Translations under genes and position numbers: made by a program
Notes under the pieces: model-generated
The model's input: only the letters and a program-made list of their open reading frames with translations
What the model was told of the DNA's origin: nothing
Database searches by the model: none
From: Sphingomonas sp. IW22
Lineage (GTDB): Bacteria; Pseudomonadota; Alphaproteobacteria; Sphingomonadales; Sphingomonadaceae
Reading direction: 5' to 3'
NCBI RefSeq assembly: GCF_041321155.1
Contig: NZ_JBGGWB010000004.1
Coordinates: 127,264 to 191,263 of the forward strand
Length of the DNA: 64,000 nt
Shown: positions 1,329 through 34,685 of the stretch, piece by piece
Numbering within the stretch: position 1 is the stretch's first letter
How the letters are laid out: each line of letters opens with the position of its first letter

Positions 1329-1669
1329 TCAGGCAAAGATCGTCTTGTGAACCTTGGTGGTGGGCACGAGCTGCCACTGCCGTTCCATGAAGCGGCTAAT
1401 CCGGTAGCGGCCGTGATTATCCGGGTCGCGGAACATCAATCTGCGGCCCCGCTTCTCGACGATGAATTCCTGGCCGACATGGCCATCCAAGAAGGTGAGA
1501 GGCTCGTGGAGACGGATCCGATCGCCATCCGCGACCTTGCGGGAGCGACGTTTCAGATTCTCCGCGCAACGGCGGCGCCAGTCGAGGGCGTGCTCCCTGT
1601 CGGTCGGCGTCAGGAGGTCGAGGATGTGCCGTGGGCAGTTGTCCTCACAGGGGCCCATCGATTCCGTCA
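1329..1669 (-). CDS. 3' exon of the intron-split DUF6927-like gene
   Basis: This stretch encodes the C-terminal half of a conserved plasmid protein: MGPCEDNCPRHILDLL, then a helix with EHALDWRRRC, then an RIRLHEPLTF...EFIVEKRGRR beta segment and an RYRISRFMERQW end. It has no ribosome site of its own at the junction. Joined to 4225-4492 after removal of the intron, the frame reads FGYKDMTESMGPCEDN without a break and gives a 202-residue protein. From memory, intact homologues on alphaproteobacterial plasmids run continuously through this point as DUF6927-type proteins. Their function is not known to me. Confidence 0.8.
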
Positions 1670-1690
1670 GTCGGGTAGGATTGGTGCTGC

Positions 1691-3613
1691 TCATGGAGTC
1701 AGCCCTGATCCCCCCGCCGAACCGCACGTGCAGCTTTCACCGCATGCGGCTCTCCACTGTGACGAACCATCACTTTGCCGTAGATCGGGCAGGCGGCCTC
1801 TGTGAGTATCCCAGTGGCATTGCTCGCACAGGACCACCGTCCTGCGGGCGCGTGCCACCTTCATTCTCACGACAAAACCGCGGTGCGAAACATCGGCCAT
1901 CCCCCGGATATGGTGCACCTGACACGGAACATCGGATCGACCGCAAGCCTCGCATTGCTTGGCATTCTGACGATCAACCCAGTCCGTACGTGAGTGGGTG
2001 AACACCTGCGTCCAAGGCTGGATATCAATCCTGGACGAGGTGGCCGGATCACGTTTCAGATGAGCCAGTTTCCAGACTTTGACCGATCGGGGCTGGCCAT
2101 CGACGTCGTAGCCGATGGTGAATTCCTGCCCCGTCCTCATGCGGGCCACGACCGCTCGCACATTGGTTTTGTGCTTGCTGGCCAAGGTCTTGAACAAGCT
2201 CCACCGCTGGAGAAACTCAAGCCTGTTCAGCTTGAAGCTCACATCCTTGGCGAGAGCATAGTAGTTCGCAAAACCCCGCAATTCGGCGTTGTAAGCTAGG
2301 ACGATCTCAACGTCGCTGCAGCTGAGCAGCAGGCTACGATGACGCGGCTTCAACACCGACAGATCACCATAACCTTTTGCAGAAGCGAACGCGTGGACCT
2401 TCTCCCAAGGGACATGCAGCTGCATCACTTCCGACGGCGGCCTACGAAGGAAGCTGACGGAACCTTGTCGGCTCCGGACAACCCGTTGGCGTGTCGTATA
2501 TGTGCGGACCTCATATCCAAGGAAGGCGGCTCCATCGCTCGCCTTGCGGATACCGCTTTTCTCCTCGGACACCGTGAGCGCCAGCGCCTCGGTCAGGAAT
2601 GCCCTGACTTCGGCGAACACGCTTCGTGCATCCTCCTTGCTACCGATAACCCCAATCATGAAGTCGTCCGCGTAGCGACAGTAACGAAGTCGGCGATAAC
2701 CGGGGTCCATCGCGTCTCTCGACGGGATGGACCGCTTTTGCGGCAGTAAGGTTTGGATTTTGGCCAAGGAGGCCGCAACCTTCACCTCGTCGACATTGTC
2801 TTTGGCCCGCAGCATGGTGACGCGCTTCCGTTGTTTCTGGATGCGCCCAGCCAGTCGCCCATATTCCGGGTTCGTGGCACGGACCTTCCCCCTCTCGAAA
2901 GCCGCGATCCGTTCCGCCATGAACATATCGAGTTCATGGAGGTAGATGTTGGCCAAGATTGGAGAGACGATACCGCCCTGCGGAGTGCCGCTGTAGGTCC
3001 GGGTGTGAACCCGGTCTTCCATAACACCCGCCTTAAGCATGCTGCCGATCAAGCCGATGAATTTCTCGTCATCGATCCTTTTCCGCAACAGCCGCAGGAG
3101 GATGTCGTGGTCGATGTTCTCGAAGAACCCCGCGACATCCACATCTACGAGCCATTTCACCCCCGTCCATACGGCTTTGACGTGTTCAAGCGCCGTATGA
3201 CACGACCGGCCCGGCCGGAATCCATGGGAGGCGTTCGAGAACACCGGTTCATAGATCCGTTCGAGCAGTTGCCGCGCCACTTCCTGAACGAGGCGGTCGT
3301 CGCGCGTGGGAATGCCCAGCGGACGCCGTTTGCCCTTGCCTTTCGGGATAAACACCCGACGCACTGGTTTGGGATCATAGGTCCCTGCCGTCACGCTGGC
3401 GATAATCGGGTCGAGGTCTTCCGGTCCGAAGTCCGCGAAGGTCTCGCCGTCAATACCCGGCGTCATCGCACCCTTGTTGGATCCGATCTTCTGGAGCCCC
3501 TCCTCCCAAAGGAGGCGAGACCCCATCAGACGATAGAGTCCATTCACCCTTTTGCCCGACGCAACGAGCGCCGGAATGGCCTCCAACCGGCCTTTCACAG
3601 TTTCTGGCAGCAT
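1691..3613 (-). CDS. ltrA: group II intron-encoded reverse transcriptase/maturase with HNH endonuclease
   Basis: The order is classical. An N-terminal RT0 region is followed by RT blocks with KGKGKRRPLGIPTRDDRLVQ, SHGFRPGRSCHTAL and DVDVAGFFENIDHD, then GTPQGGIVSPILANIYL, the catalytic YADD (in RYCRYADDFMIGV), a maturase domain X around FANYYALA, and a C-terminal HNH module (CEACGRSDVPCQVHHIRGM...CEQCHWDTH). The protein promotes intron RNA splicing and target-primed reverse transcription during retrohoming. ATG 3613 is chosen; a GTG at 3619 is also possible. The frame does not stop before domain V: it reads through domain V and ends inside domain VI, so the last 20 or so residues overlap the ribozyme core. 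No frameshift is seen. Confidence 0.95.
   Translation of the reverse strand: MLPETVKGRLEAIPALVASGKRVNGLYRLMGSRLLWEEGLQKIGSNKGAMTPGIDGETFADFGPEDLDPIIASVTAGTYDPKPVRRVFIPKGKGKRRPLGIPTRDDRLVQEVARQLLERIYEPVFSNASHGFRPGRSCHTALEHVKAVWTGVKWLVDVDVAGFFENIDHDILLRLLRKRIDDEKFIGLIGSMLKAGVMEDRVHTRTYSGTPQGGIVSPILANIYLHELDMFMAERIAAFERGKVRATNPEYGRLAGRIQKQRKRVTMLRAKDNVDEVKVAASLAKIQTLLPQKRSIPSRDAMDPGYRRLRYCRYADDFMIGVIGSKEDARSVFAEVRAFLTEALALTVSEEKSGIRKASDGAAFLGYEVRTYTTRQRVVRSRQGSVSFLRRPPSEVMQLHVPWEKVHAFASAKGYGDLSVLKPRHRSLLLSCSDVEIVLAYNAELRGFANYYALAKDVSFKLNRLEFLQRWSLFKTLASKHKTNVRAVVARMRTGQEFTIGYDVDGQPRSVKVWKLAHLKRDPATSSRIDIQPWTQVFTHSRTDWVDRQNAKQCEACGRSDVPCQVHHIRGMADVSHRGFVVRMKVARARRTVVLCEQCHWDTHRGRLPDLRQSDGSSQWRAACGESCTCGSAGGSGLTP
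1719..1752 (-). ncRNA. group II intron domain V (catalytic hairpin)
   Basis: The minus strand reads GAGCCGCATGCGG, GTGAAA-type loop, then GCACGTGCGGTTC. This is a 34-nt hairpin that matches the conserved domain V form, including the AGC-type catalytic triad near its base and a GAAA tetraloop. It is followed by domain VI with a bulged A at 1676. Confidence 0.88.
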
Positions 3614-4224
3614 CAGCACACCCCATGATCGGTGGTTGAAGAATCACAGCTGCCGCCCTTCCCCCGGTCTTCCCCGCTTTCGGCCCGATCGCTCGAGACC
3701 TTATACAGTTGCACCGCCGCCTCCGAAGAGGTCGATGTCCCGGGCATTACCCCGGGCATTTGAGTAATATGGCGGCTCCGTACCCATGCAGGCCGGCAGA
3801 AGCCGCCTGTTTAGGGCATCCCGTAGTTACGCTGAATGGAGATGCGGCGCGGTTAGGTGTCCCGTTCGTCCACTAAACCCCTCGACGAGAGGCGCACCGG
3901 ATGGGCTGAGAAACAGGCGGCCAAGACATGAGACCGCTGTCATCATCCGGACCTGGCGTGACAGTCGCTTTCGCCAGTATCGCTATATAGATTGCTGCAG
4001 ACTGGGATTTAAGCAGTGTAGCCTTCACCATACGCACCTTGCCCTGACCGTCATCGCCTCCATTTGCGACTAAGACGCATCTGGCCTTTTCCGAACATGC
4101 TATTGTTCCCCGTCCCTTTCGGGATTTCAGACCTTGTGAGGCCCGAGGTTAGTCCGGCGAGCAGAGGCATTCTCAACTTACCTCATCATCACTGATACTC
4201 CATTTCAGCGCCGCAACGGCGCAC

Positions 4225-4492
4225 TGTCCTTGTAGCCGAATTGCTCGCCGGTCTTGCTGCGAGGATTCCAGATAACCTTGCAGATGATCGCGAACACCTC
4301 GCCGCCGGCCCCATTCGTCATCAGCTGCGCGGCCGCATAGTAGGTGCGGTTCTGCGCGCAGGACGAGGCGAGCACCCTGAGGCCGGATGTCCCGCCATCC
4401 ACGGTGCGGGTATAGGTGAACTGGTCGTCGAGATAGGCCTTCGCCGAGGCGTGACCGCCCATCGACGTGAACGGCATGGTGAGCCATCCCAT
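4225..4492 (-). CDS. 5' exon of the intron-split DUF6927-like gene
   Basis: ATG 4492 has a strong ribosome site (AAGGAG, 6-7 nt upstream). The exon encodes MGWLTMPFTSMGGHASAKAY, a QFTYTRT strand, a GLRVLASSCAQNRTYYAAAQ segment and an AIICKVIWNPR...FGYKD strand, the N-terminal half of a DUF6927-type plasmid protein. In the unspliced RNA the frame runs six codons into the intron (SAPLRR) and stops. This would give a truncated 95-residue product unless the intron is spliced. It lies 30 nt downstream of the ArdC-like gene and is probably co-transcribed with it. Function unknown. Confidence 0.8.
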
Positions 4493-4522: not shown

Positions 4523-5470
4523 TCACGCCGCCGCAGGCAGTGCGGCGACAGGACCGGACGCCGAGGCGCCCCGCGCCTGGTGATCGGAGCCGAAAGCGAG
4601 CAGATAATTGAACGCCTGCTCCGCCTTGGCCGCCGCGTGGATGATCGCGGTCTTGTCGGCGCGCAGAATGCCGAGCCAGTGAGCGACATAACTCGCGTGA
4701 TTATCGTGCAGCGTGTTGGGAAGGCCGAGCTGCGCGCAGACGAGGCCGCTCCCGATCTCCGCGACCAGTTCCTCGAATGCGTAGGCTTGATCACCGAACC
4801 GCTTGCCGAACGTACGCGCGAGGCGGGTGGTGCCGCCCGACCAGTGCGTCGTCTCGTGCGCGCGCACTGACGCATAGTGATCCATCGTCTTGAAGGATCG
4901 CTGATGCGGCATCTGGATATAATCGAAGGTCGGGTGGAAGAATGCGCGATCGCCGCCGTGGCGTACATCCGCAGGGATGGCGCCGAAGAATGCGTCGATC
5001 GCGCTCTGCCGAGCCGACGGGTCGACCGGATCGGCAGTCTCCGCGCCGGGATAGAAATAAGCCGGCAAGCCGTCGATCTGATCGGCATTGAAGACGACAT
5101 AGTGGCGCAGGAACCGAATGTTCTTCTCGGTCTCGGCGCCCGTGACGGGGTTAGACTCGGTTTTCTTGAAGCTGGAATAATAGACCGACAGCGAGCCGCT
5201 TTCACCGCGGCGGACATTTGCGCCCAGGGCCTCGGCCTGTCGGTAGGTCATCCAGTAGCGCGATCGATAGCCATTCGCATCGGCGATCGCCCAGAGGTAG
5301 ACAGTGTTGATGCCGGTGTAAGGCGTGCCGCAGTGACGGAGCGGTCGGCCCCCGGCGCCACTCACGCGCCACGGCCGGCTCCACGGGGGCACACCTTCCT
5401 CCAGTTTGCGGATGATCAGGTTGGTGATCTCGGCGGCGACGTCCCGGCTCGGTTTCTGGTTGGCGCGCAT
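4523..5470 (-). CDS. ardC: ArdC-like antirestriction / zincin-type polyvalent protein
   Basis: The ORF has two recognisable parts. The N-terminal ArdC-type ssDNA-binding domain (residues 5-130) includes RKLEEGVPPWSRPW, GTPYTGINTVYLW and YWMTYRQAEALGA. The C-terminal zincin-like metallopeptidase domain carries the HETTHWSG helix, with FEELVAEIGS downstream as a likely third metal ligand. Plasmid ArdC proteins protect incoming single-stranded DNA from host restriction. ATG 5470 is chosen because it begins the conserved core; the frame is open upstream to 5512. Length (315 aa) is normal. It belongs to a minus-strand cluster that follows the large ParB-like gene. Confidence 0.9.
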   Translation of the reverse strand: MRANQKPSRDVAAEITNLIIRKLEEGVPPWSRPWRVSGAGGRPLRHCGTPYTGINTVYLWAIADANGYRSRYWMTYRQAEALGANVRRGESGSLSVYYSSFKKTESNPVTGAETEKNIRFLRHYVVFNADQIDGLPAYFYPGAETADPVDPSARQSAIDAFFGAIPADVRHGGDRAFFHPTFDYIQMPHQRSFKTMDHYASVRAHETTHWSGGTTRLARTFGKRFGDQAYAFEELVAEIGSGLVCAQLGLPNTLHDNHASYVAHWLGILRADKTAIIHAAAKAEQAFNYLLAFGSDHQARGASASGPVAALPAAA

Positions 5471-5565
5471 GGCGATGGGCTCCGGTCGCGCGAGAGCTAG
5501 CCGCCGACGCAAGGGCGACGGCGACTAGATCCCTCGATGTTGGTCAGGATGATATGGCGGGCGGG

Positions 5566-22612: not shown

Positions 22613-23872
22613 ATGAACGGCAGTTATCGCCGGCAGCGCGTGCTTGCGCTGGCCGGCACGCTCGCGGCGCTATGCCCCGCAGGCGCAGCGTGGTCGCAGA
22701 CCGCGCCCCCATTCGCACAGCTCTTGAGCCAGACGCGCGACGTGCCGCGCGTCACGGCGCTAGAGGCCGACGTCGCGCGAGCGCGGGGCCTTGCCGAGCA
22801 GGCACGCGCGCGTCCCAACCCGTCGATCAACGTCTATGCCGAGAACTTCGCCGGCGACCTTGATCGCAACGCCCGCAATCAGCAGCAGACGACCTTCCAG
22901 ATCGACCAGCCTATCGAGCTGGGCGGGAAGCGATCGGCCCGGATCGCCGCCGGCGAAGCCGGCATCGTCGCTGCGCAGGCGCGGAACCGCGACGGACGCC
23001 TCGTCTATGCGACCGAGCTGGCGCGCGCCTATGTCGGCGCCGAGATCGCCGATCGCCGCATCGCGCTCGCCGAGGACGAGGTTGAGGAGGCAATCGCCGA
23101 CCTGAAGGTGGCCCGTGCCCTCGTCGGGGCGGGCAAGGAAGCCCGGCTGCGCCAGGTGCAGGCGGAAACCGAACTCAACACGCTCCAGGCTGATCTTGAG
23201 AACGCCCGCGCGCTCAAGACGGTCGCGCTGGCACGGCTGTCCGCCCTCGCCGGCTCGCCCACGCCGTTCACCGGCGTTTCGGAATCGCTGCTCGATCGCC
23301 TCGACGCCAGGCCGACCATCGGGCCGATCGACCCGATGCAGGCGACGACGGTGCGCGTCGCGGAAGCCGAGCGCGATGCGGCCGCCCGGGCGGTGACGGT
23401 CCAGCAGCGTCTCGCCATCCCGAACGTCACCGCCCAGCTCGGGGTCCGCCAGCTCCGCGTGGCAAGCGGTCCGGCAGTCGTTGCCGGCGTATCGGTGCCC
23501 CTGCCCTTCTTCGATCGCAACCGGGGCAACATCGCCGCCGCGCGCGCCGATCTGCAAGGGGCCGAGGCGCGGGCCGCAGCGGCACGGCTCGAAGCGGAGG
23601 CCGGCACCCGCGCCGGGCTCGCGCTGGTCGAGGCGGCCGATGCCCGTGCCGCTGCCGCACAGCGCACGATGGCGACGGCCGAGGAAGGCTATCGCCTCGC
23701 CCGCATCGCCTATGAGGCGGGCAAGTCGCCGCTGATCGAACTGCTCGCCGCCCGCCACAATCTCGGGGTCGCTCGCGGCGTCATTCTCGATGCCGCTGCC
23801 GCCCGTCTCGACGCTCGCGCCAATCTCGCCCGTCTTCAGGGCCTCACCATCACGGGGGAAGCGGTCCAATGA
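22613..23872 (+). CDS. cnrC: CnrC/CzcC-type outer membrane efflux factor (TolC family)
   Basis: The signal peptide (RRQRVLALAGTLAALCPAGAAWSQ) is followed by two TolC-type OEP repeats rich in coiled coil: ARPNPSINVYAENFAGDLD, then EQPIELGGKR-type DQPIELGGKRSARIAAGEAG, and near the end GYRLARIAYEAGKSPLIELLAARHNL. It forms the outer-membrane channel of the CBA metal pump. 419 aa is typical. GGAGG lies 10 nt upstream of ATG 22613. The stop overlaps the start of cnrB (ATGA), showing tight coupling. Confidence 0.92.
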   Translation: MNGSYRRQRVLALAGTLAALCPAGAAWSQTAPPFAQLLSQTRDVPRVTALEADVARARGLAEQARARPNPSINVYAENFAGDLDRNARNQQQTTFQIDQPIELGGKRSARIAAGEAGIVAAQARNRDGRLVYATELARAYVGAEIADRRIALAEDEVEEAIADLKVARALVGAGKEARLRQVQAETELNTLQADLENARALKTVALARLSALAGSPTPFTGVSESLLDRLDARPTIGPIDPMQATTVRVAEAERDAAARAVTVQQRLAIPNVTAQLGVRQLRVASGPAVVAGVSVPLPFFDRNRGNIAAARADLQGAEARAAAARLEAEAGTRAGLALVEAADARAAAAQRTMATAEEGYRLARIAYEAGKSPLIELLAARHNLGVARGVILDAAAARLDARANLARLQGLTITGEAVQ

Positions 23873-25026
23873 CCGACAGGAATCGTCTTTACACCGGCGC
23901 CGCCATCGGCCTGGTCGCCGCCGCGGGGCTCGGGTTCGGTGCCGCGCGCCTTACCCAATCGCCCGTCCCTGCACCCGCTGCCATGGAGGCGACGGCAGCG
24001 CCGGCCAAGCCGTCGAACACGGTCGCGATGACATCCCAGGCGCTCGCCGCCTCGCAGATCGCCGTCGCCCCCGCAGCCGCCGGCGAGCTGGACGCCGCAA
24101 TCCTAGCCTCCGCCACGGTCGAGGCCACCCCCGATGCCGAAGCGGTGCTGACCGCCCGCGCGCCGGGCGCGGTCAGCCGGATCATGGTCCGCATCGGCGA
24201 TCCCGTTCGTGCCGGTCAGACCCTCGCGCTGGTCGAGAGCCGTGACGCCTCGCAGATCGCGGCCGATCGCTCGGCCGCATCGGCGCGCGTGACCCTTGCC
24301 GCTCGCCAGCTCGCGCGAGAGCGCAGCTTGCTCAATCAGGGTGTCAGCCCCCGTGCCGACTTCGAGTCCGCACAGGCCAACCTCGCCGTCGCCGAGGCCG
24401 ATGCCCGGCGCGCCAGCGCCGCAGCCGGCGCCGCGCGCGTGTCGGGAGACGGGCGCTCCGTCGCCGTCGTGAGTCCGGTGGCGGGCCGCGTCACCAATGC
24501 CGCCGCCAATCTCGGCCAATTCGTCGCGGCCGAGACCGAGCTGTTCCGCGTCGCCGACCCGCGCCGTCTCCAGATCACCGCCAGCGTGCCCCCCGCCGAT
24601 GCGGGCCGCGTGCGTGAAGGCGACCGCGTGGAGCTGACCACCAACGACGGTCGCACGATCGAGGGACGCGTGCGCTCGTCCACCGGCGTCGTCGATCCGC
24701 AGTCGCGGACCGCCACCGTGATCGTGACGCCGACCGCAGGCGGCAGCACGCTCGCCCCCGGCCAGCTCGTCCAGGCGCGCATCCTCGCCAGCGGCGGTGC
24801 CGCCAAGAGCGGCGTGATGGTGCCGCAGGACGCGGTGCAGACGCTTGGGACCGAGAGCGTGGTGTTCGTGCGGACCGCCCAGGGCTTCCGCGCGCAGCCG
24901 GTCCGGATCGGCAGCCGATCGGGCGGCATGGTGGCGATCACCGGCGGCCTTTCCGCCGGCACGCCGATCGCCACCACCAATGCCTTCCTGCTCAAGGCCG
25001 AGATCGAGAAGGAGTCGGCGGAATGA
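23869..25026 (+). CDS. cnrB: CnrB/CzcB-type periplasmic adaptor (HlyD family)
   Basis: A single N-terminal membrane anchor (YTGAAIGLVAAAGLGFGAARL) precedes a biotinyl-lipoyl-like segment (LTARAPGAVSRIMVRIGDPVRAGQTLALVES), a helical hairpin, and a beta-barrel domain (VVSPVAGRVTNAAANLGQFVAAETELFRVADP). It links the RND pump to the outer-membrane factor in the periplasm. The frame overlaps the stop of cnrC and the start of cnrA by four bases each, so the three subunits form one operon. No His-rich metal-chaperone domain is seen at the N-terminus, unlike some CzcB proteins. Confidence 0.92.
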   Translation: MTDRNRLYTGAAIGLVAAAGLGFGAARLTQSPVPAPAAMEATAAPAKPSNTVAMTSQALAASQIAVAPAAAGELDAAILASATVEATPDAEAVLTARAPGAVSRIMVRIGDPVRAGQTLALVESRDASQIAADRSAASARVTLAARQLARERSLLNQGVSPRADFESAQANLAVAEADARRASAAAGAARVSGDGRSVAVVSPVAGRVTNAAANLGQFVAAETELFRVADPRRLQITASVPPADAGRVREGDRVELTTNDGRTIEGRVRSSTGVVDPQSRTATVIVTPTAGGSTLAPGQLVQARILASGGAAKSGVMVPQDAVQTLGTESVVFVRTAQGFRAQPVRIGSRSGGMVAITGGLSAGTPIATTNAFLLKAEIEKESAE

Positions 25027-28000
25027 TTGGCCGCATCCTCTCCCTCTCGGTCCGGATGCGATGGCTCGTCGCCTTCCTGACCCTCGTCGTCATCGGCTTC
25101 GGCCTGTGGCAGATCACCAAGCTCCCGATCGACGCGGTGCCCGACGTCACCAACCGTCAGGTGCAGATCAGCACCTTCGCCCCGACGCTCGGGCCGGTCG
25201 ATATCGAGAAGCAGGTCACGTTCCCCGTCGAAACCGCGCTTGCGGGCATCCCCGGCTTGGAGATGACGCGCTCCATCTCGCGCAACGGCTTCAGCCAGGT
25301 AACGGCGGTTTTCGCCGATTCCACCGATATTTACTTCGCGCGCCAGCAGGTCACGGAACGGCTCGCGCAGTCGCGCGACAGCCTGCCCGCCAACGCGCAG
25401 CCGATCCTCGCACCGCTCAGCACCGGCCTGGGCGAGATCTTCTTCTACTCGGTCGCCTTCCGTCACCCCGACGGCAAGGGCATCAAGACGGTCGACGGGA
25501 AGCCGGGCTGGCAGTCGGACGGCAGCTATCTCACCCCGGAAGGTGAGCGGCTGACCACCGAGCTGGCGAAGGCCGCCTATCTTCGCACGGTCCAGGACTG
25601 GATCATCCGCCCGCAAATGCGCGCTGTGCGCGGCGTCGCCGGCGTCGATTCCAACGGCGGCTATGTGAAGCAATATCTGATCGAGCCGAACCTGAACGCG
25701 CTCGCCAGCTACGGCCTGTCGGTGACGGAGCTGGCGGACGCGATGGAGCGCGCGAACCTCTCCGCCGGGTCCAACTATGTGCGCCGGGCCGGCGAGAGCT
25801 TCCTAGTCCGCGCCGATGCCCGGCTGAAGTCGATCGAGGACATTCAGGAGGCGGTCGTCGCCACCCGCAACGGCGTCCCGGTCCGCGTCAAGGACGTGGG
25901 CCAGGTCGTGATCGGCGGTGCAGTCCGCACCGGCTCGGGTAGCCGCATGGGATCGGAAGCGGTCATTTCGACCGTGCTGATGCTGGTCGGCGACAACAGT
26001 CGCATCGTCGCAACCGATGCCGCCGAGAAATTGACGCAGATCAACAAGGTGCTGCCGCCCGACGTGTTCGCCGAGCCGGTCTATAATCGATCCAAGCTCG
26101 TCAATGCCACGATCGCGACCGTCGAGAAGAACCTGACCGAAGGCGCGCTGCTCGTCATCGTCGTCCTGTTCCTGCTGCTCGGCAATATCCGCGCCGCGCT
26201 CATCACCGCCGCGGTCATCCCGATCACGATGCTGATGACGGCGGCCGGCATGAACGGGCTTGGCGTGTCCGGCAACCTGATGAGCTTGGGCGCGCTCGAC
26301 TTCGGCCTGATCGTCGACGGCGCGGTCATCATCGTCGAGAACGCGCTACGCCGCCTCGCCGAGCGTCAGGAGCATGAGGGTCGCCTTCTCACCCGCGAGG
26401 AGCGGATGGAGGAAACCACCCTCGCCGCGAAGGAGATGGTGCGGCCGACCGTCTATGGTCAGCTCATCATCTTCCTCGTCTTCGTGCCATTGCTCACCTT
26501 CCAAGGCGTCGAGGGCAAGACGTTCGCGCCGATGGCGATCACGTTGATGGTGGCGCTCGCCTCCGCCTTCGTCCTGTCGCTGACCTTCGTGCCGGCGATG
26601 ATCGCGATCGTGGTGACGGGCAAGGTCAGCGAGACCGAGGTGAAGCCGATCCGCTGGTTCAAGGAACGCTACGCCCCCGTGCTGGGGCGGGCCGTTGCCC
26701 GGCCGATGCCCTTTATCCTGGGCGGCGTCGGTGTGTTCGCAGCGGCGGTGCTGAGCTTCGGCCTGCTCGGCGAGGAGTTCATGCCGCAGCTCGACGAGAA
26801 GGACATCACCGTCACCAACTTCCGCGTGCCATCGGCCTCGATCGACCAATCGACACAGATGCAGCTTCAGATCGAGAACGCCCTGAAAACGCTTCCCGAG
26901 GTGGCGCTGGTCTTCTCCAAGAACGGCAACGCCGACCTTGGCACCGATCCGATGCCGCCCAATGCGTCGGACACTTACGTCATCCCCAAGCCGGAAGATG
27001 AATGGCCGGCAGAGGTGAAGAGCAAGGAGGACATTCTTCGCCGCATCGAGGAGCGGATGAAGCCGCTCATCGGCAACCGCACCGAGATCCAGCAACCGAT
27101 CCAGATGCGGTTCAACGAGCTGATCGCCGGCGTCCGGTCGGACGTCGCGATCAAGCTCTACGGCGACGACCTCGACGCGATGAGCGAACAGGCGAAGCGC
27201 ATTGCCGTGGCAATGCGCACCATCCCCGGCGCGGCCGATGTGAGTGCCGAGCAGACGTCGGGTGCCCCGACGTTTGACGTGCAGATCGATCGGCAAGCGG
27301 CAGGTCGCTACGGCCTGTCGGTAGAGGAGGTGGCGAACACCGTCTCGGCCGCGCTCGGCGGTCGCGAGGCCGGGCTGCTGTTCGAGGGCGACCGCCGCTT
27401 TGACGTGGTGGTCCGCCTCCCCGACGCGCAGCGCGACGACGTGGAGACGCTGGGCTCGATCCCGGTGATGCTGCCCGCGGCCGAGGGTCAGGTCGCGCGC
27501 TCGATCCCGCTCAGCCAGGTCGCGCGGTTCAGCTACACCCAGGGGTTGAACCAGATCAGCCGCGAGAACGGCAAGCGCATGGTGGTCGTCCAGATCAACG
27601 TGCGCGGGCGCGATCTAGGCGGCTTCGTCCAAGAGGCGCAGGCCAAGATCGGCCAGATGCAGCTTCCCGCCGGCATGTATACGGCGTGGGGCGGCACCTT
27701 CGAGAGCCTGCAATCCGCGCGGTTGCGGCTCCTGATCGTCGTGCCGATCTGTTTCCTCGCCATCTACGCGCTGCTCTACATGGCGCTGGGGGGCTTCATC
27801 CCTGCGGCGATCGTGTTCTCGGCCGTGCCGATGGCGCTGGCGGGCGGCGTGTTCGCGCTGTTGCTGCGCGGCATCCCCTTCTCGATCACCGCCGCTGTCG
27901 GCTTCATCGCCCTATCGGGCGTCGCGGTCCTCAACGGGCTCGTGATGATGAGCGCGATCGGGAAGCGGCGCGAGGAAGGGCAGAGCGACGACGAGGCGAT

Positions 28001-28256
28001 CGTGGGTGGCGCGATGGAGCGCGTCCGCCCAGTGCTGATGACGGCATTGGTCGCGTCGCTCGGCTTCGTGCCGATGGCGCTCGCCACCGGCACCGGCGCC
28101 GAGGTGCAACGGCCGCTCGCGACCGTCGTCATCGGCGGCCTCATCACCTCGACCGCCCTCACGCTGCTGGTGCTGCCAGCGATCACCGCGCTCGCAAGCC
28201 GTTGGTCGCATCGGCGCCGCACCGACCCTGCCACTCCTACCCACGCCATCGCGTGA
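25023..28256 (+). CDS. cnrA: CnrA/NccA-type heavy-metal RND efflux pump
   Basis: This is a full-length HME-RND pump (1077 aa). TM1 follows a RILSLSVRMRWLVAFLTLVV start, and the second periplasmic half begins after TM6. The TM4 signature DFGLIVDGAVIIVENALRRL (residues about 425) carries the proton-relay acids. The following ERQEHEGRLLTREERMEE and RPTVYGQLIIFLVFVPLLTFQGVEGK stretches resemble CnrA/NccA more than CzcA. With an NreB-like exporter upstream, nickel and cobalt are the likely substrates; the exact specificity is inferred. The pump takes metal from the periplasm or cytoplasm and expels it with CnrB and CnrC, driven by protons. Confidence 0.92.
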   Translation: MIGRILSLSVRMRWLVAFLTLVVIGFGLWQITKLPIDAVPDVTNRQVQISTFAPTLGPVDIEKQVTFPVETALAGIPGLEMTRSISRNGFSQVTAVFADSTDIYFARQQVTERLAQSRDSLPANAQPILAPLSTGLGEIFFYSVAFRHPDGKGIKTVDGKPGWQSDGSYLTPEGERLTTELAKAAYLRTVQDWIIRPQMRAVRGVAGVDSNGGYVKQYLIEPNLNALASYGLSVTELADAMERANLSAGSNYVRRAGESFLVRADARLKSIEDIQEAVVATRNGVPVRVKDVGQVVIGGAVRTGSGSRMGSEAVISTVLMLVGDNSRIVATDAAEKLTQINKVLPPDVFAEPVYNRSKLVNATIATVEKNLTEGALLVIVVLFLLLGNIRAALITAAVIPITMLMTAAGMNGLGVSGNLMSLGALDFGLIVDGAVIIVENALRRLAERQEHEGRLLTREERMEETTLAAKEMVRPTVYGQLIIFLVFVPLLTFQGVEGKTFAPMAITLMVALASAFVLSLTFVPAMIAIVVTGKVSETEVKPIRWFKERYAPVLGRAVARPMPFILGGVGVFAAAVLSFGLLGEEFMPQLDEKDITVTNFRVPSASIDQSTQMQLQIENALKTLPEVALVFSKNGNADLGTDPMPPNASDTYVIPKPEDEWPAEVKSKEDILRRIEERMKPLIGNRTEIQQPIQMRFNELIAGVRSDVAIKLYGDDLDAMSEQAKRIAVAMRTIPGAADVSAEQTSGAPTFDVQIDRQAAGRYGLSVEEVANTVSAALGGREAGLLFEGDRRFDVVVRLPDAQRDDVETLGSIPVMLPAAEGQVARSIPLSQVARFSYTQGLNQISRENGKRMVVVQINVRGRDLGGFVQEAQAKIGQMQLPAGMYTAWGGTFESLQSARLRLLIVVPICFLAIYALLYMALGGFIPAAIVFSAVPMALAGGVFALLLRGIPFSITAAVGFIALSGVAVLNGLVMMSAIGKRREEGQSDDEAIVGGAMERVRPVLMTALVASLGFVPMALATGTGAEVQRPLATVVIGGLITSTALTLLVLPAITALASRWSHRRRTDPATPTHAIA

Positions 28257-31132: not shown

Positions 31133-31813
31133 TCACAAGCCGACGAACAGGGTCGCGCTCAACACATGGTTGGTCCGATCCTCGCCACGGCGGAAAACAC
31201 GCTGATTGAGATAGCCGGGCTCCAGTCGCATCCGCTTGGCTACGGGCAAGCCGACACCGACGAAGGTGCGCCACTGATCCACCCCGTCCCGGGCGCCCCA
31301 TTGTGTCGAGTTCAGATTGAAGAACCCTTCGGTGAAGGCAACCGCCTGAACCGCGCCCTTGCGCGCGATCGGCACCTGCAACCGGACGAACTGGCGCAGC
31401 CGCCATCCCGTGTCATCGCGGCCCTCGATCATGCGCTGTTCGAGCCTGGTGCGGCTAATGACCAGAGGAGCGCCCGCTTTCGTTCGCAGGGCCGCGAACT
31501 GAAGCTGCTGCCAGATGCGATGTTCTTTGGTGGTCCGGCCTGTCTCCGGATCGGTGCGAACATAGGCGTAGCCGACCACGGCATGAGCGTCGCGACCGAT
31601 CCGCGCGCCGATGGCCGGGCGCAAGACTAGCTGACTGCCGCCGCCAACATCGTCGATCGCGCGCGCCTGACCTTCAAGCCAGAGGAACAGGTCGCCGCGA
31701 ACCGTTCCCGAGGCGATAACGGCCGCCCATGCCTGCGTATCGTCCTCGGCGACGGCGGGCTGGGCGGCTCCGAGCAGCAATGCGCCAATGAGCCATTGCA
31801 AGACCCACCTCAT
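31133..31813 (-). CDS. DUF2490 outer-membrane-like protein
   Basis: A signal peptide (MRWVLQWLIGALLLGAAQPAVA) precedes an antiparallel beta pattern typical of DUF2490: GDLFLWLEGQARAID, VLRPAIGARIGRDAHAVVGYAYV, EHRIWQQLQ, RTRLEQRMIEGRDDTGWRLRQFVRLQ and a final YLNQRVFRRGEDRTNHVLSATLFVGL. It is probably an outer-membrane barrel. ATG 31813 overlaps the chrA stop as ATGA, so it is translated with chrA. Its role in chromate resistance is not known. Confidence 0.8.
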   Translation of the reverse strand: MRWVLQWLIGALLLGAAQPAVAEDDTQAWAAVIASGTVRGDLFLWLEGQARAIDDVGGGSQLVLRPAIGARIGRDAHAVVGYAYVRTDPETGRTTKEHRIWQQLQFAALRTKAGAPLVISRTRLEQRMIEGRDDTGWRLRQFVRLQVPIARKGAVQAVAFTEGFFNLNSTQWGARDGVDQWRTFVGVGLPVAKRMRLEPGYLNQRVFRRGEDRTNHVLSATLFVGL

Positions 31814-33207
31814 CGTATCGCTCCTAACGCGTATAGCGCCAGTCCGGCGGCCGACGTCGCCAGCAGCGTCGTGATGACTCCTGCCCGCGTCATGAAGATC
31901 GCGTAAGCAGCCCCCAATGACAGCACGAGGGCGGCCGGATCGATGCTGGTCAACACCGGCGCGTCGAACCGAATAGGGCCTGCCGACACCGCGATCGTCG
32001 TGCGGAAGAGTGTGTGCAGCGCGAACCAGATCGCGAGGTTGAGGACAACGCCGACGACCGCGGCCGTGATGGCGGATAGCGCGCCCGCGACCGCAGCATT
32101 GCCGCGCAGCCGCTCGATGAACGGCGCGCCGAGGAAGATCCACAGGAAGCACGGCACGAACGTCACCCAGGTCGCCAGCAACCCGCCGAGGGTTCCGGCG
32201 ACCAGCGGTGACAGCGTTCCGGGATCACGATAGGCACCAAGGAAGCCGACGAATTGCAGGACCATGATGAGCGGTCCCGGCGTCGTCTCCGCCATGCCTA
32301 ACCCGTCGAGCATCTCCTTCGGACCCAGCCAGCCATAAGTGCCGACCGCCTGCTGCGCGACATAGGCGAGAACGGCATAGGCACCCCCGAACGTCACCAT
32401 CGCCATCGTCGAGAAAAACGTCGCTATCCGGCTGAACACGTCGTCGGGGCCAAACGCGACCAGAAGCGCCGCTACCGGCACCAGCCACAGCGCGAGCCAG
32501 ACGATCGCCGTGCGCACCGTCTCCCGCCAGGTCGGGCGGGCGTGGTCGGGCAGTTCCTCGCCGAGCAGCGTATCGGCATCGGCAACGGTTGCGCCTTTCG
32601 AAGCGCCATGACCGCCACCGCGGAATGCGGTGCTCCCCTGCCGCGCCGACCACCACCCGATGATCCCGGCGCCCAGCACGATGAGCGGGAATGGCGCACC
32701 GGCGAAGAAGATCAGGACGAAGGCGACCGCAGCGAGGATTCGCGCCGGTGCGCTTTTGAGGGCGCGGCTGCCGATCCGCACGACCGCCTGGAGGACGACG
32801 GCCAACACCGCGGCCTTGAGGCCGAAGAACAGTGCCGAGACGAGACCTACACGGCCATAAAGGACATAAATCCAGCTCAGCGCCATGATCGCGACCGCGC
32901 CGGGGATGACGAACAGCACGCCGGCGACGATGCCGCCCTTCGTGCGATGCATCAGCCATCCGATATAGGTGGCGAGCTGCTGTGCCTCCGGGCCAGGCAG
33001 CAACATGCAGTAGTTGAGCGCGTGGAGGAAACGCTGCTCGCCGATCCACCGCTTTTCGTCGACGAGAATGCGGTGCATCACCGCGATCTGCCCGGCGGGT
33101 CCACCGAAGGATAGCATGGCGATCCTCAGCCAAACCCAGAAGGCTTCGCCGAGTGTGACCGGCTCCGGCCGGGCGCTTGTTCGCGCATCGATCGTCGCCA
33201 CCGTCAT
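31810..33207 (-). CDS. chrA: chromate transporter ChrA (long-chain type)
   Basis: Two homologous CHR domains are present. The first has FWVWLRIAMLSFGGPAGQIAVMHR and LNYCMLLPGPEAQQLATYIGW. The second has FFSTMAMVTFGGAYAVLAYVAQQ and GLGMAETTPGPLIMVLQFVGFLGAY. Around 11-13 membrane helices are expected. At 465 aa it is a usual two-domain ChrA, which expels chromate from the cytoplasm. ATG 33207 overlaps the chrB stop by four bases. Part of the operon chrB-chrA-DUF2490-DUF1259. Confidence 0.95.
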   Translation of the reverse strand: MTVATIDARTSARPEPVTLGEAFWVWLRIAMLSFGGPAGQIAVMHRILVDEKRWIGEQRFLHALNYCMLLPGPEAQQLATYIGWLMHRTKGGIVAGVLFVIPGAVAIMALSWIYVLYGRVGLVSALFFGLKAAVLAVVLQAVVRIGSRALKSAPARILAAVAFVLIFFAGAPFPLIVLGAGIIGWWSARQGSTAFRGGGHGASKGATVADADTLLGEELPDHARPTWRETVRTAIVWLALWLVPVAALLVAFGPDDVFSRIATFFSTMAMVTFGGAYAVLAYVAQQAVGTYGWLGPKEMLDGLGMAETTPGPLIMVLQFVGFLGAYRDPGTLSPLVAGTLGGLLATWVTFVPCFLWIFLGAPFIERLRGNAAVAGALSAITAAVVGVVLNLAIWFALHTLFRTTIAVSAGPIRFDAPVLTSIDPAALVLSLGAAYAIFMTRAGVITTLLATSAAGLALYALGAIR

Positions 33208-34028
33208 GCCGAAATCTTCCCGCGTGCGGGTTGGTGCGAGGTCCAGTTGTGCTTTTCGCCCTGCGCGTCGCGGCTCCATCGATAGAGCGCATCATACACC
33301 GCCATACCGGCCTCAAGCTGGGCATGATCGTCATCGTGGATGCGTGAAAGACCAAGCGAGATGGCCAGCAACCCCGCGGCTTCGGGAGCGATGTCCAGAC
33401 GATCCGTGTCCGCGCCGCGCACAATCGACGCGACCCGAACAAGAGCATCGTTGGCGCTCAGACCAAACGCTTCGAGCATCACGTCAAAGGTGCAGCGTTC
33501 GCCCCGATGGCTCCACAGCACACCTTGATCGGAAACGTCGAACGGCTCCGCCTGCTGCTGCGTGGCTATGGTCACCACTTCGCTGGGCGCGACGAAGAGA
33601 AAGCGGGCTTCCGGATCGATAAACCGGCGAATCAGCCAAGGGCAGGCAATGCGGTCGACCTTGGGTCGCGCCCGCGTCACCCACCATGTTCGTCCGTCAC
33701 TGTGTCGCGGCGGCAAATGGTCCAGCGATACCGTGGAAAACCCCGCAGCGAGCCATGAAGCGAAACCGCCTTCCAGCGCGTCGGCTGCTACGCCCTCGCT
33801 GCGTAGAATAGAAGCCGCAGCAACCGCCCTTCCGTCACCGGCCTCATCGATCACGACGACGCTTGCAGCCTTGATCGCAGACCAGTCGTCCGGCTTGTCG
33901 AAACTGCGAAAGATCGATCCAGGAACAGCTTGTTTCGGTGCGAGACGAATATCTACGAGTGTTGGCGACCCCGGCAGGGCAACCAGACGAGCGAGTTTAT
34001 CGGAACTGATCGTATTGAGCGAAGGCAT
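33204..34028 (-). CDS. chrB: chromate resistance protein with rhodanese and ChrB C-terminal domains
   Basis: The N-terminal third is a rhodanese-like fold (LARLVALPGSPTLVDIRL, VVVIDEAGDGRAVAAASILRSEGVAADALEGGFASW). The usual active-site Cys position reads DEAGDGR, so it is probably inactive as a sulfurtransferase. The C-terminal domain is ChrB-type (WWVTRARPKVDRIACPWLIRRFIDPEARFLFV, then HRGERCTFDVMLEAFGL). ChrB proteins support or regulate chromate export. It is the first gene of the operon. Confidence 0.9.
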   Translation of the reverse strand: MPSLNTISSDKLARLVALPGSPTLVDIRLAPKQAVPGSIFRSFDKPDDWSAIKAASVVVIDEAGDGRAVAAASILRSEGVAADALEGGFASWLAAGFSTVSLDHLPPRHSDGRTWWVTRARPKVDRIACPWLIRRFIDPEARFLFVAPSEVVTIATQQQAEPFDVSDQGVLWSHRGERCTFDVMLEAFGLSANDALVRVASIVRGADTDRLDIAPEAAGLLAISLGLSRIHDDDHAQLEAGMAVYDALYRWSRDAQGEKHNWTSHQPARGKISA

Positions 34029-34685
34029 GGCGCGTCTCTAGCAAAATGGAGCTGGACGCGATTCTTTGGCTAACGCCTCATGGGGAGATCGCAATCCCCA
34101 TCGCTCTGTATCAAACACGAGAACCATCCAAAGTCAATTGCGCCGCGAGTTGTAGCCGATGGTGTCAAACTGTTCGGTTGTGATGCCACCTCCACCTGCC
34201 CGTTTTGCGTGGGGTTGCCGGTCTCAGAACCCCGGATCATAATGTCGGCGGGGTGAGTGGGCGTGAAGGCGTCAAGCCCAGTTGTGCCAGCAACGAACCC
34301 CCAGCGGGACGGGCGAGCGCGGTCGACACTACCTCCCGATGCGAAGCAATTTTCTCGTAACCTGTTGCCGATTGCTTCCTTCCGCAACTGTCATCGAGAG
34401 ATTGAGAAAAGGAACTCCGCAGGGCGCCTCGAGCAGGCAATATCGGAAACGACGAGCACGCGGCGGATCGCCTTAAATCTGAACGCTGCTGGTGGTTTGG
34501 TCGAGAGCCGGCGACTGACCGCTTTCATCCGGAGCAGCCATTCGGTGCTCGCTTCCCGAACGACATGGATTGTCGGAAACAACCTGAGCATCGAGGCGCA
34601 CATTGAGATAATACAGTTATCATATAAGCGGATTTGACGCCTTTCTATAAGGTGGGTATGTGCATCCCGGCGGAGGGCAGGGCAT
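34029..34685. other. 657-bp stretch without a convincing gene
   Basis: Several open frames cross this region on both strands, but none has a good ribosome site or a recognisable domain. The best is a minus-strand frame ending in the segment AIDFGWFSC, which looks like a decayed insertion-sequence edge. The right end contains the recombinase-associated 37-bp box at 34617. It is probably promoter DNA for chrB plus mobile-element debris. Confidence 0.5.
34617..34653 (+). repeat. 37-bp box upstream of recombinase copy 2
   Basis: Second copy of the TTATCATATAAG...CTATAAGGT box (three mismatches to 18857-18893). Here it lies 152 bp before the recombinase start, whereas at copy 1 the distance is only 18 bp. 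The extra DNA holds the short ORF at 34686. Confidence 0.65.

Follow-up and report, generated by a model that had tools for sequence, protein, structure and literature searches.

Bacterial group II introns are, in the standard view as outlined in PMC4424553, mainly mobile DNA lying outside housekeeping genes. The closest described systems are Ll.LtrB of Lactococcus lactis and Ef.PcfG of Enterococcus faecalis, in which an intron carrying a reverse transcriptase (RT)-maturase-endonuclease protein interrupts a conserved plasmid gene. Ll.LtrB sits in the relaxase gene of a conjugative plasmid (PMC6003770, in part), and an identity of 99.7% is given for the two introns versus 61% for their host genes (PMC5072309, in part). 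Here, we describe a complete group II intron of 2,555 nucleotides (nt) that splits a DUF6927 gene in Sphingomonas sp. IW22, within a 64,000-nt stretch of contig NZ_JBGGWB010000004.1 (positions 127,264 to 191,263; hereafter the window). As with Ll.LtrB and Ef.PcfG, a near-identical intron is found within divergent host genes; unlike them, the host gene is DUF6927 instead of a relaxase gene, the bacteria are others, 17 exon alleles carry the intron, and one identical allele is seen empty, with a type-A intron and with a type-B intron. A preliminary description of this DNA had considered placement in a plasmid gene unusual, which does not hold given the known position of Ll.LtrB (PMC6003770, in part).

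We regard it as very probable that the element is an intact mobile group II intron with recent activity, that it carries the gene for an LtrA-like RT-maturase-HNH protein, and that it retrohomes site-specifically into a DUF6927 motif on sphingomonad plasmids. This is read from sequence, namely from the anatomy of the intron, its site, empty and filled states of that site, the near-identity of introns whose exons diverge, the specificity of the copies found for one site, and the low ratio of nonsynonymous to synonymous divergence (dN/dS) of one pair of loci. The kind of element is already known; this member, its host gene and the breadth of its natural states were not found in the literature searched. 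No title on this intron appeared in the open-licence literature on group II introns of Sphingomonas, Novosphingobium, sphingomonads or plasmids, and the open-licence literature yielded no paper on DUF6927.

Two further groups of introns bear comparison. Introns of the B.th.I6/B.c.I16 type share one host gene across several strains of the Bacillus cereus group, where they are either identical or about 90% alike (PMC3261151, in part), a pattern also seen here. Those introns are described with a 3' extension, whereas 3 nt separate the end of the domain VI stem from the splice site in the present intron, for which reason a Bacillus-like extension was rejected. In Novosphingobium, the introns of pNL1 (locus L070) and pLA1 (L069), annotated as 'reverse transcriptase domain-containing protein', are about 79% identical to the window's and lie at exactly the same site, but belong to a different lineage in which the intron protein stops before domain V.

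The intron occupies window positions 4224 to 1670 on the minus strand, running from 5' GTGCGCC to CCCGAC 3'. Its 5' splice site, ...TTCGGCTACAAGGACA/GTGCGCCG, is cut between 4225 and 4224, and its 3' splice site, ...ATCCTACCCGAC/TGACGG, between 1670 and 1669; relatives with a readable end are inserted at the same site. The ends GTGCG...GAC fit the 5' GUGYG / 3' AY rule for mobile group II introns and match the readable ends of relatives, whose 3' end is AAC or GAC. Rfam Intron_gpII (RF00029) matches the 3' core at 1754-1670 with 59.2 bits (gathering threshold 40, E = 1.9e-10), and the assembly holds a single copy of the intron. The claim of a complete intron with exact splice sites was verified in the sequence for the boundaries, domains V and VI and the maturase.

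Exon 1 (4225..4492, minus strand) comprises 89 codons from the ATG at 4492 and the first base of a junction Met codon; exon 2 (1329..1669, minus strand) supplies the last two bases of that codon, 112 codons and the stop (1329-1331), the gene being cut after the first base of codon 90. Exon 2 holds the DUF6927 domain (PF21992; 105.8 bits, cutoff 27, E = 1e-30), and exon 1 alone has no Pfam match. Of 52 other loci, 46 allowed placement of the junction, the alignment reaching no further than exon 1 in the remaining six, and a single frame runs through it in all 46; one of these read-through loci (L020) has a stop inside its exon-1 part. Moreover, an uninterrupted 202-residue database protein (P0009, whose 4,603-nt contig could be DNA or cDNA) matches the exon peptides around the junction Met in 89/89 and 111/112 residues, one difference in 201, so that 202 residues are accounted for as 89 + M + 112. 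The predicted continuous frame after intron removal thus agrees with every placed homologue and with P0009, and a break in intact homologues at the junction, which the preliminary description had named as evidence to the contrary, was seen in none of the 46. Read unspliced, the open reading frame (ORF) 4492..4205 encodes 95 residues, 89 from the exon and 6 from the intron, in agreement with the truncated product proposed before. The accompanying claim that expression depends on splicing holds for this gene copy but not for the genome, where an uninterrupted second DUF6927 gene lies on another contig (L024, G000:C7:30432-30704; 54% identity over the exon-1 part), and the split copy may therefore be dispensable to the cell.

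The intron-encoded protein (1691..3613, minus strand) has 640 residues from its ATG, or 642 from a GTG at 3619, and contains an RT with a YADD motif, a maturase and an HNH endonuclease. Pfam matches to RVT_1 (E = 2e-31), Intron_maturas2 (2e-10) and AI2M-like_HNH (6e-8) are all above their cutoffs, bearing out the earlier view of an intact maturase. The protein appears LtrA-like, judging from LtrA as its best match among solved structures in the PDB (E = 3e-109, residues 26-601). Its ORF overlaps domain V and ends in domain VI (1691-1752). Depending on the lineage, the ORF stops 21, 29, 67 or 102 nt short of the intron end, and the C-terminal peptides, where traced, are unrelated; the overlap therefore looks incidental, and we dropped the idea of a meaningful protein extension through domain V. 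Three older-lineage introns (L072, L107 and L036) have a longest open stretch of only 594, 400 and 503 codons, respectively, and their protein looks broken; the ORFs of L072 and L107 break off earlier than the stops of other lineages.

The RNA parts were examined in an alignment of 13 introns of the family. Domain V (1719..1752, minus strand) is identified by the Rfam match and by pairing in the alignment, with both helices 100% paired (11 distinct rows). Domain VI (1673..1715, minus strand) has a stem that is 98.9% paired, with both-side changes in two of eight pairs, and a bulged branch-point A at 1676, the seventh base from the 3' end. In the domain V and VI stems together, 99.6% of cells are paired and three pairs have changed on both sides. 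Exon-binding site 1 (EBS1), UGUCUU (intron 297-302; 3923..3928, minus strand), lies in a hairpin (intron 285-312; 3913..3940, minus strand) with a 9-bp stem, in which 98.1% of cells are paired and four of nine pairs have changed on both sides; its covariation score was matched by 0 of 500 shuffles, and its count of pairs changed on both sides by 89 of 500. EBS1 pairs at six of six positions with intron-binding site 1 (IBS1), AGGACA (exon -6 to -1; 4225..4230, minus strand). Among 40 occupied loci that include a 5' end, EBS1 could be read in 38, as UGUCUU in 36 and UGUCCU in two (L089, L092).

The A at 3929 can serve as delta, pairing with the U at +1 of exon 2. This A-U pair is possible at all occupied loci with a readable 3' end except L083, and the U at +1 is also fixed by the Met codon; an EBS3-IBS3 contact may take the place of delta-delta' (a subgroup IIA feature). 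Less firmly, we assign EBS2 to AGUCG (intron 154-158; 4067..4071, minus strand), which is invariant in 13/13 aligned introns and lies in the loop of a hairpin (alignment columns 149-171) whose stem covaries; it complements a candidate IBS2, CGGCT, at exon -14 to -10 (4234..4238, minus strand).

For comparison across loci we used a working set of 46, from which two distant RTs (L098, L101) and duplicates (L031-L034, L102-L104, L106) were excluded. Within it, 23 full-length copies differ from the window's intron at 0-3 of 2,555 positions, nine of them, the window counted, being identical. All 23 lie at the same base, in 17 exon-allele combinations (exons clustered at 97%), and are carried by Sphingomonas, Sphingobium, Novosphingobium, Sphingopyxis and Rhizorhabdus, some records possibly representing one strain. 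The 16 other exon combinations are 67.7-87.7% identical to the window's in exon 1 and 63.9-83.2% in exon 2 (gaps not counted). No sign of co-conversion was seen in the pairs walked, in whose divergent flanks differences start 2-8 bases from the intron ends. A GTDB contig scan with the intron protein gave 27 loci, 25 of this intron family and two distant RTs, and the DUF6927 target was present at the readable end or ends of all 25. The same base is used by older intron lineages (78-80% identity to the window's), those of pNL1 and pLA1 included; an older lineage shows the same pattern, the introns of pNL1 and L093 being 1.000 identical with a synonymous divergence (dS) of 0.70-0.84 in their exons. 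The intron is uncommon in genome samples: any match (E <= 0.001) was found in 15 of 150 relative genomes and 24 of 397 family-member genomes, and a full-length copy of about 100% identity in five and four, the window's genome included in each count.

Individual loci add detail to this distribution. Novosphingobium olei TW-4 holds window-type and pNL1-type introns (L077 and L093) in one strain, on separate contigs and in their own DUF6927 alleles. L092, a near-identical intron protein from a metagenome bin labelled Hyphomicrobium, reflects either spread past sphingomonads or a mis-binned contig. Damaged copies occur in Sphingopyxis FD7 (L060), where the intron ends beside an annotated IS6 family transposase, and in genome G166 (L105), where about 1.16 kb of extra DNA lies within it. 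Sphingobium sp. CAP-1 plasmid p3 (L066) has a second, different group II-like intron of 2,589 nt, GTGCGC...CTACCCTAC, that includes an RT gene and lies in an ArdC-like gene region, 1,100 nt upstream of the first; locus L079 has the same flanks without this insert. The split DUF6927 gene is easily missed in annotation: nine of 60 listed plasmid rows have no annotation over exon 1, and all nine carry the intron family or part of it, a count that serves as an indication only as the PLSDB gene table is incomplete (CM003352.1 has one feature in all).

The search of relatives for an empty site, which had been proposed as a check, returned four alleles that exist both empty and filled with identical exons, at 268/268 plus 340/340 bases (608/608). 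Written as empty = filled, these are L005 = L075; L013/L025/L026 = L035; L139/L140/L141 = L064 = L065; and L143 = L067/L090/L091. The third allele is known in three states, namely empty (L139, L140, L141), with the window-type intron (L065) and with an intron 80% identical to it (L064), the exons of the two filled loci being identical. From this comparative evidence the intron appears to be mobile in a site-specific manner. IBS1 pairs with EBS1 at 6/6 positions in all 29 distinct occupied exon-1 alleles (30 when one locus too short to key is added), in three spellings: AGGACA in 14, AGGATA in 11 and AAGACA in four. The only variable positions are -2 and -5, where the Asp and Lys codons have their third bases, and the G and U of EBS1 opposite them allow Watson-Crick or wobble pairing with every Lys-Asp spelling. 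The target encodes the motif Phe-Gly/Ala-Tyr-Lys-Asp-Met (F85 to M90 of the 202-residue protein), at least 90% conserved in 64 homologues, with K88 invariant, and falls in a β-strand of the predicted structure. An earlier survey is described as finding group II introns without preference for conserved sites (PMC2814812, in part), so the conserved DUF6927 site is not what that survey predicts. Among empty alleles, 37 of 40 distinct ones also pair 6/6 with EBS1 and three (L009, L017, L158) have C at -1; good targets therefore stay empty, which suggests that exposure, more than sequence, limits occupation. The site in the paralogue L024 pairs 6/6 as well, a vacant potential homing site within an intron carrier.

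In the mechanism that we propose, the transcript would fold, the intron protein would aid splicing at 4225/1669, and the joined exons would encode the 202-residue protein. The lariat ribonucleoprotein would locate new sites through three pairings, EBS1-IBS1 (UGUCUU to AGGACA), EBS2-IBS2 and delta-delta', with insertion by reverse splicing and target-primed reverse transcription. Splicing is very likely, judging from the loci compared. The best indirect test is the pair L088/L089, which seems to have kept the intron while diverging: its introns share 95.2% identity and its flanks 88-100% per 100 nt, and the dN/dS values of exons 1 and 2 are 0.061 and 0.068, respectively. Two further pairs, L069/L070 (introns 90.9% identical) and L071/L072 (87.4%), have dN/dS values of 0.06-0.14, with introns that are not safely datable. 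Of 28 distinct filled alleles, 26 retain both exon frames, a weak count because most insertions are young.

Several observations weigh against the reading of an intact intron that splices and homes. In the pair L088/L089, dS differs between exon 1 (0.082) and exon 2 (0.358), which may mean that the histories of the two sides are not entirely shared, and the selection argument rests mainly on this pair. Two of the 28 filled alleles are damaged, L077 by an early stop in exon 2 and L083 by an extra C at the 3' junction. On the RNA side, EBS2-IBS2 pairing is imperfect (3-5 of 5 pairs across occupied alleles), and the single-sequence fold of the 5' 603 nt barely beats shuffles (z -1.10), so that support for domain I comes from covariation and not from the single-sequence fold. 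The intron protein scores 294.5 against NCBIfam group_II_RT_mat, slightly below the cutoff of 300. In L083 (Sphingomonas sp. TDK1), the extra C between intron and exon 2 would put exon 2 out of frame, barring a one-base move of the 3' splice site, and may also be an assembly error.

The damaged alleles, together with the uninterrupted paralogue and the reported lowering of host-gene expression by Ll.LtrB (PMC6003770, in part), would suit a mobile intron that has stopped splicing in this host, with the DUF6927 gene knocked out and its loss tolerated through the paralogue. We consider this improbable. Retrohoming requires a spliced lariat, so introns with 0-3 differences in 2,555 nt and intact domain V, domain VI and protein are unlikely to be dead; the low dN/dS in both exons of L088/L089 and, more weakly given the mostly recent insertions, the 26 alleles with both frames kept point the same way. 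Spread of the intron as a passenger of its host gene, through ordinary plasmid transfer and homologous recombination instead of retrohoming, would accord with the 13 conjugative and five mobilizable plasmids among the 21 matching plasmid records, and recombination at the intron does seem to happen. However, exons beside near-identical introns are 12-36% different from the window's, up to the boundary in the pairs walked, and a single allele is seen empty, with intron A and with intron B, which makes this explanation very improbable indeed and leaves site-specific retrohoming as the preferred one.

Identical intron copies in different plasmids would provide 2.5 kb of perfect homology for recombination, and exon combinations at the filled loci, written with the type of exon 1 before that of exon 2, form a chain: B-X (L061, L078), A-X (L062, L063, L096), A-Y (L094) and C-Y (L095), the exon 2 of L095 being 97.4% identical to that of L094. 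In the pair L061/L062, the sequence upstream of the intron is 53-88% identical per 100 nt, with the first difference at -5, and downstream it is identical up to +898, placing the switch between exon -5 and +1. L094 and L062 are identical upstream from -1 to -482 and differ downstream from +8, the switch lying between -1 and +8; L094 and L096 are likewise 99-100% identical per 100 nt over 3.3 kb upstream and differ downstream from +8. On a larger scale, identity between plasmids of S. paucimobilis and S. cloacae is 95.5-100% in 500-nt bins over the intron plus about 21.8 kb downstream, versus 70-85% over about 9 kb upstream; beyond this the alignment ends, each record having its own replication initiator gene, and PLSDB assigns the two different replicon types. 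The intron thus appears as a sharp recombination boundary in two cases, which would read as natural exon shuffling, and a crossover inside the shared intron is the simplest reading of the mosaic exon pairs. We counted pairs as discordant when one exon was at least 95% and the other less than 85% identical. Among 28 distinct filled alleles (378 pairs), three pairs are discordant and one is concordant; among 41 distinct empty alleles (820 pairs), none is discordant and ten are concordant. The numbers are small, the pairs are not independent, and the three discordant ones derive perhaps from two events.

Plasmid recombination might instead have produced the mosaic exon pairs before the intron arrived, introns then inserting independently in both recombinants. 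An intron that inserts often and is near-identical everywhere allows for this, since its presence in both partners proves nothing alone. We nevertheless judge it rather unlikely, as the switch lies at or in the intron both times (-5 to +1 and -1 to +8) and discordant pairs are confined to filled alleles, in the small and non-independent counts given above. On balance, we favour the intron as a recombination hub, in which plasmids cross over, making chimeric DUF6927 proteins and swapping plasmid arms, including the replication/partition side, with the EBS1 wobble fitting all Lys-Asp spellings. Exon 1 with one arm would be exchanged against exon 2 with the other arm. If so, a homing intron would drive exon shuffling plus replicon exchange in sphingomonad plasmids.

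RNA-level chimeras produced by Ll.LtrB were described by the Cousineau group (PMC6248898, in part). Unlike those, the present cases come from plasmid genomes in nature, where the breakpoint falls at the intron and, in one case, an arm of about 22 kb is shared. A 2021 paper reportedly describes chimeric relaxases arising through group II intron exon shuffling at the RNA and DNA level. Titles in the open-licence literature gave no clear match for intron-mediated plasmid recombination or for EBS1 wobble in relation to codon position. The natural experiments assembled here comprise one allele in its empty state and with either of two introns, near-identical introns in exons down to 64% identity with the window's, and apparent crossovers at the intron. 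Together they make homing, the absence of co-conversion, the cost of interruption and intron-driven exon shuffling directly testable, partly in cultured strains. They extend the preliminary description, presenting the element as a homing intron that has been spreading recently and is probably a recombination hub.

The surroundings of the intron are plasmid-like, the window containing RepA_C, ParA-type and ParB-type genes. The upstream neighbour of the split gene, on the same strand as the exons, is an ArdC-like antirestriction/zincin metallopeptidase gene (4526..5512, minus strand). An AlphaFold2 model of the uninterrupted Sphingomonas morindae DUF6927 protein (mf4443cd14d6a; mean predicted local distance difference test score 89.8) had no match in the PDB at E <= 0.001 and matched three uncharacterised phage proteins at that threshold, the best being A0A6J5KV42 (E = 4.8e-11). 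Assigning a function by fold was therefore dropped; the model suggests that the DUF6927 gene is common to plasmids and phages. A drug-resistance context was also rejected, since the resistance-nodulation-division (RND) system at 22613-28253 is of the CusA/CzcA heavy-metal type, part of the window's genes having been identified. Farther along the window, a chrB-a RNA (34026-34104) lies beside a chromate efflux transporter gene (31813-33279).

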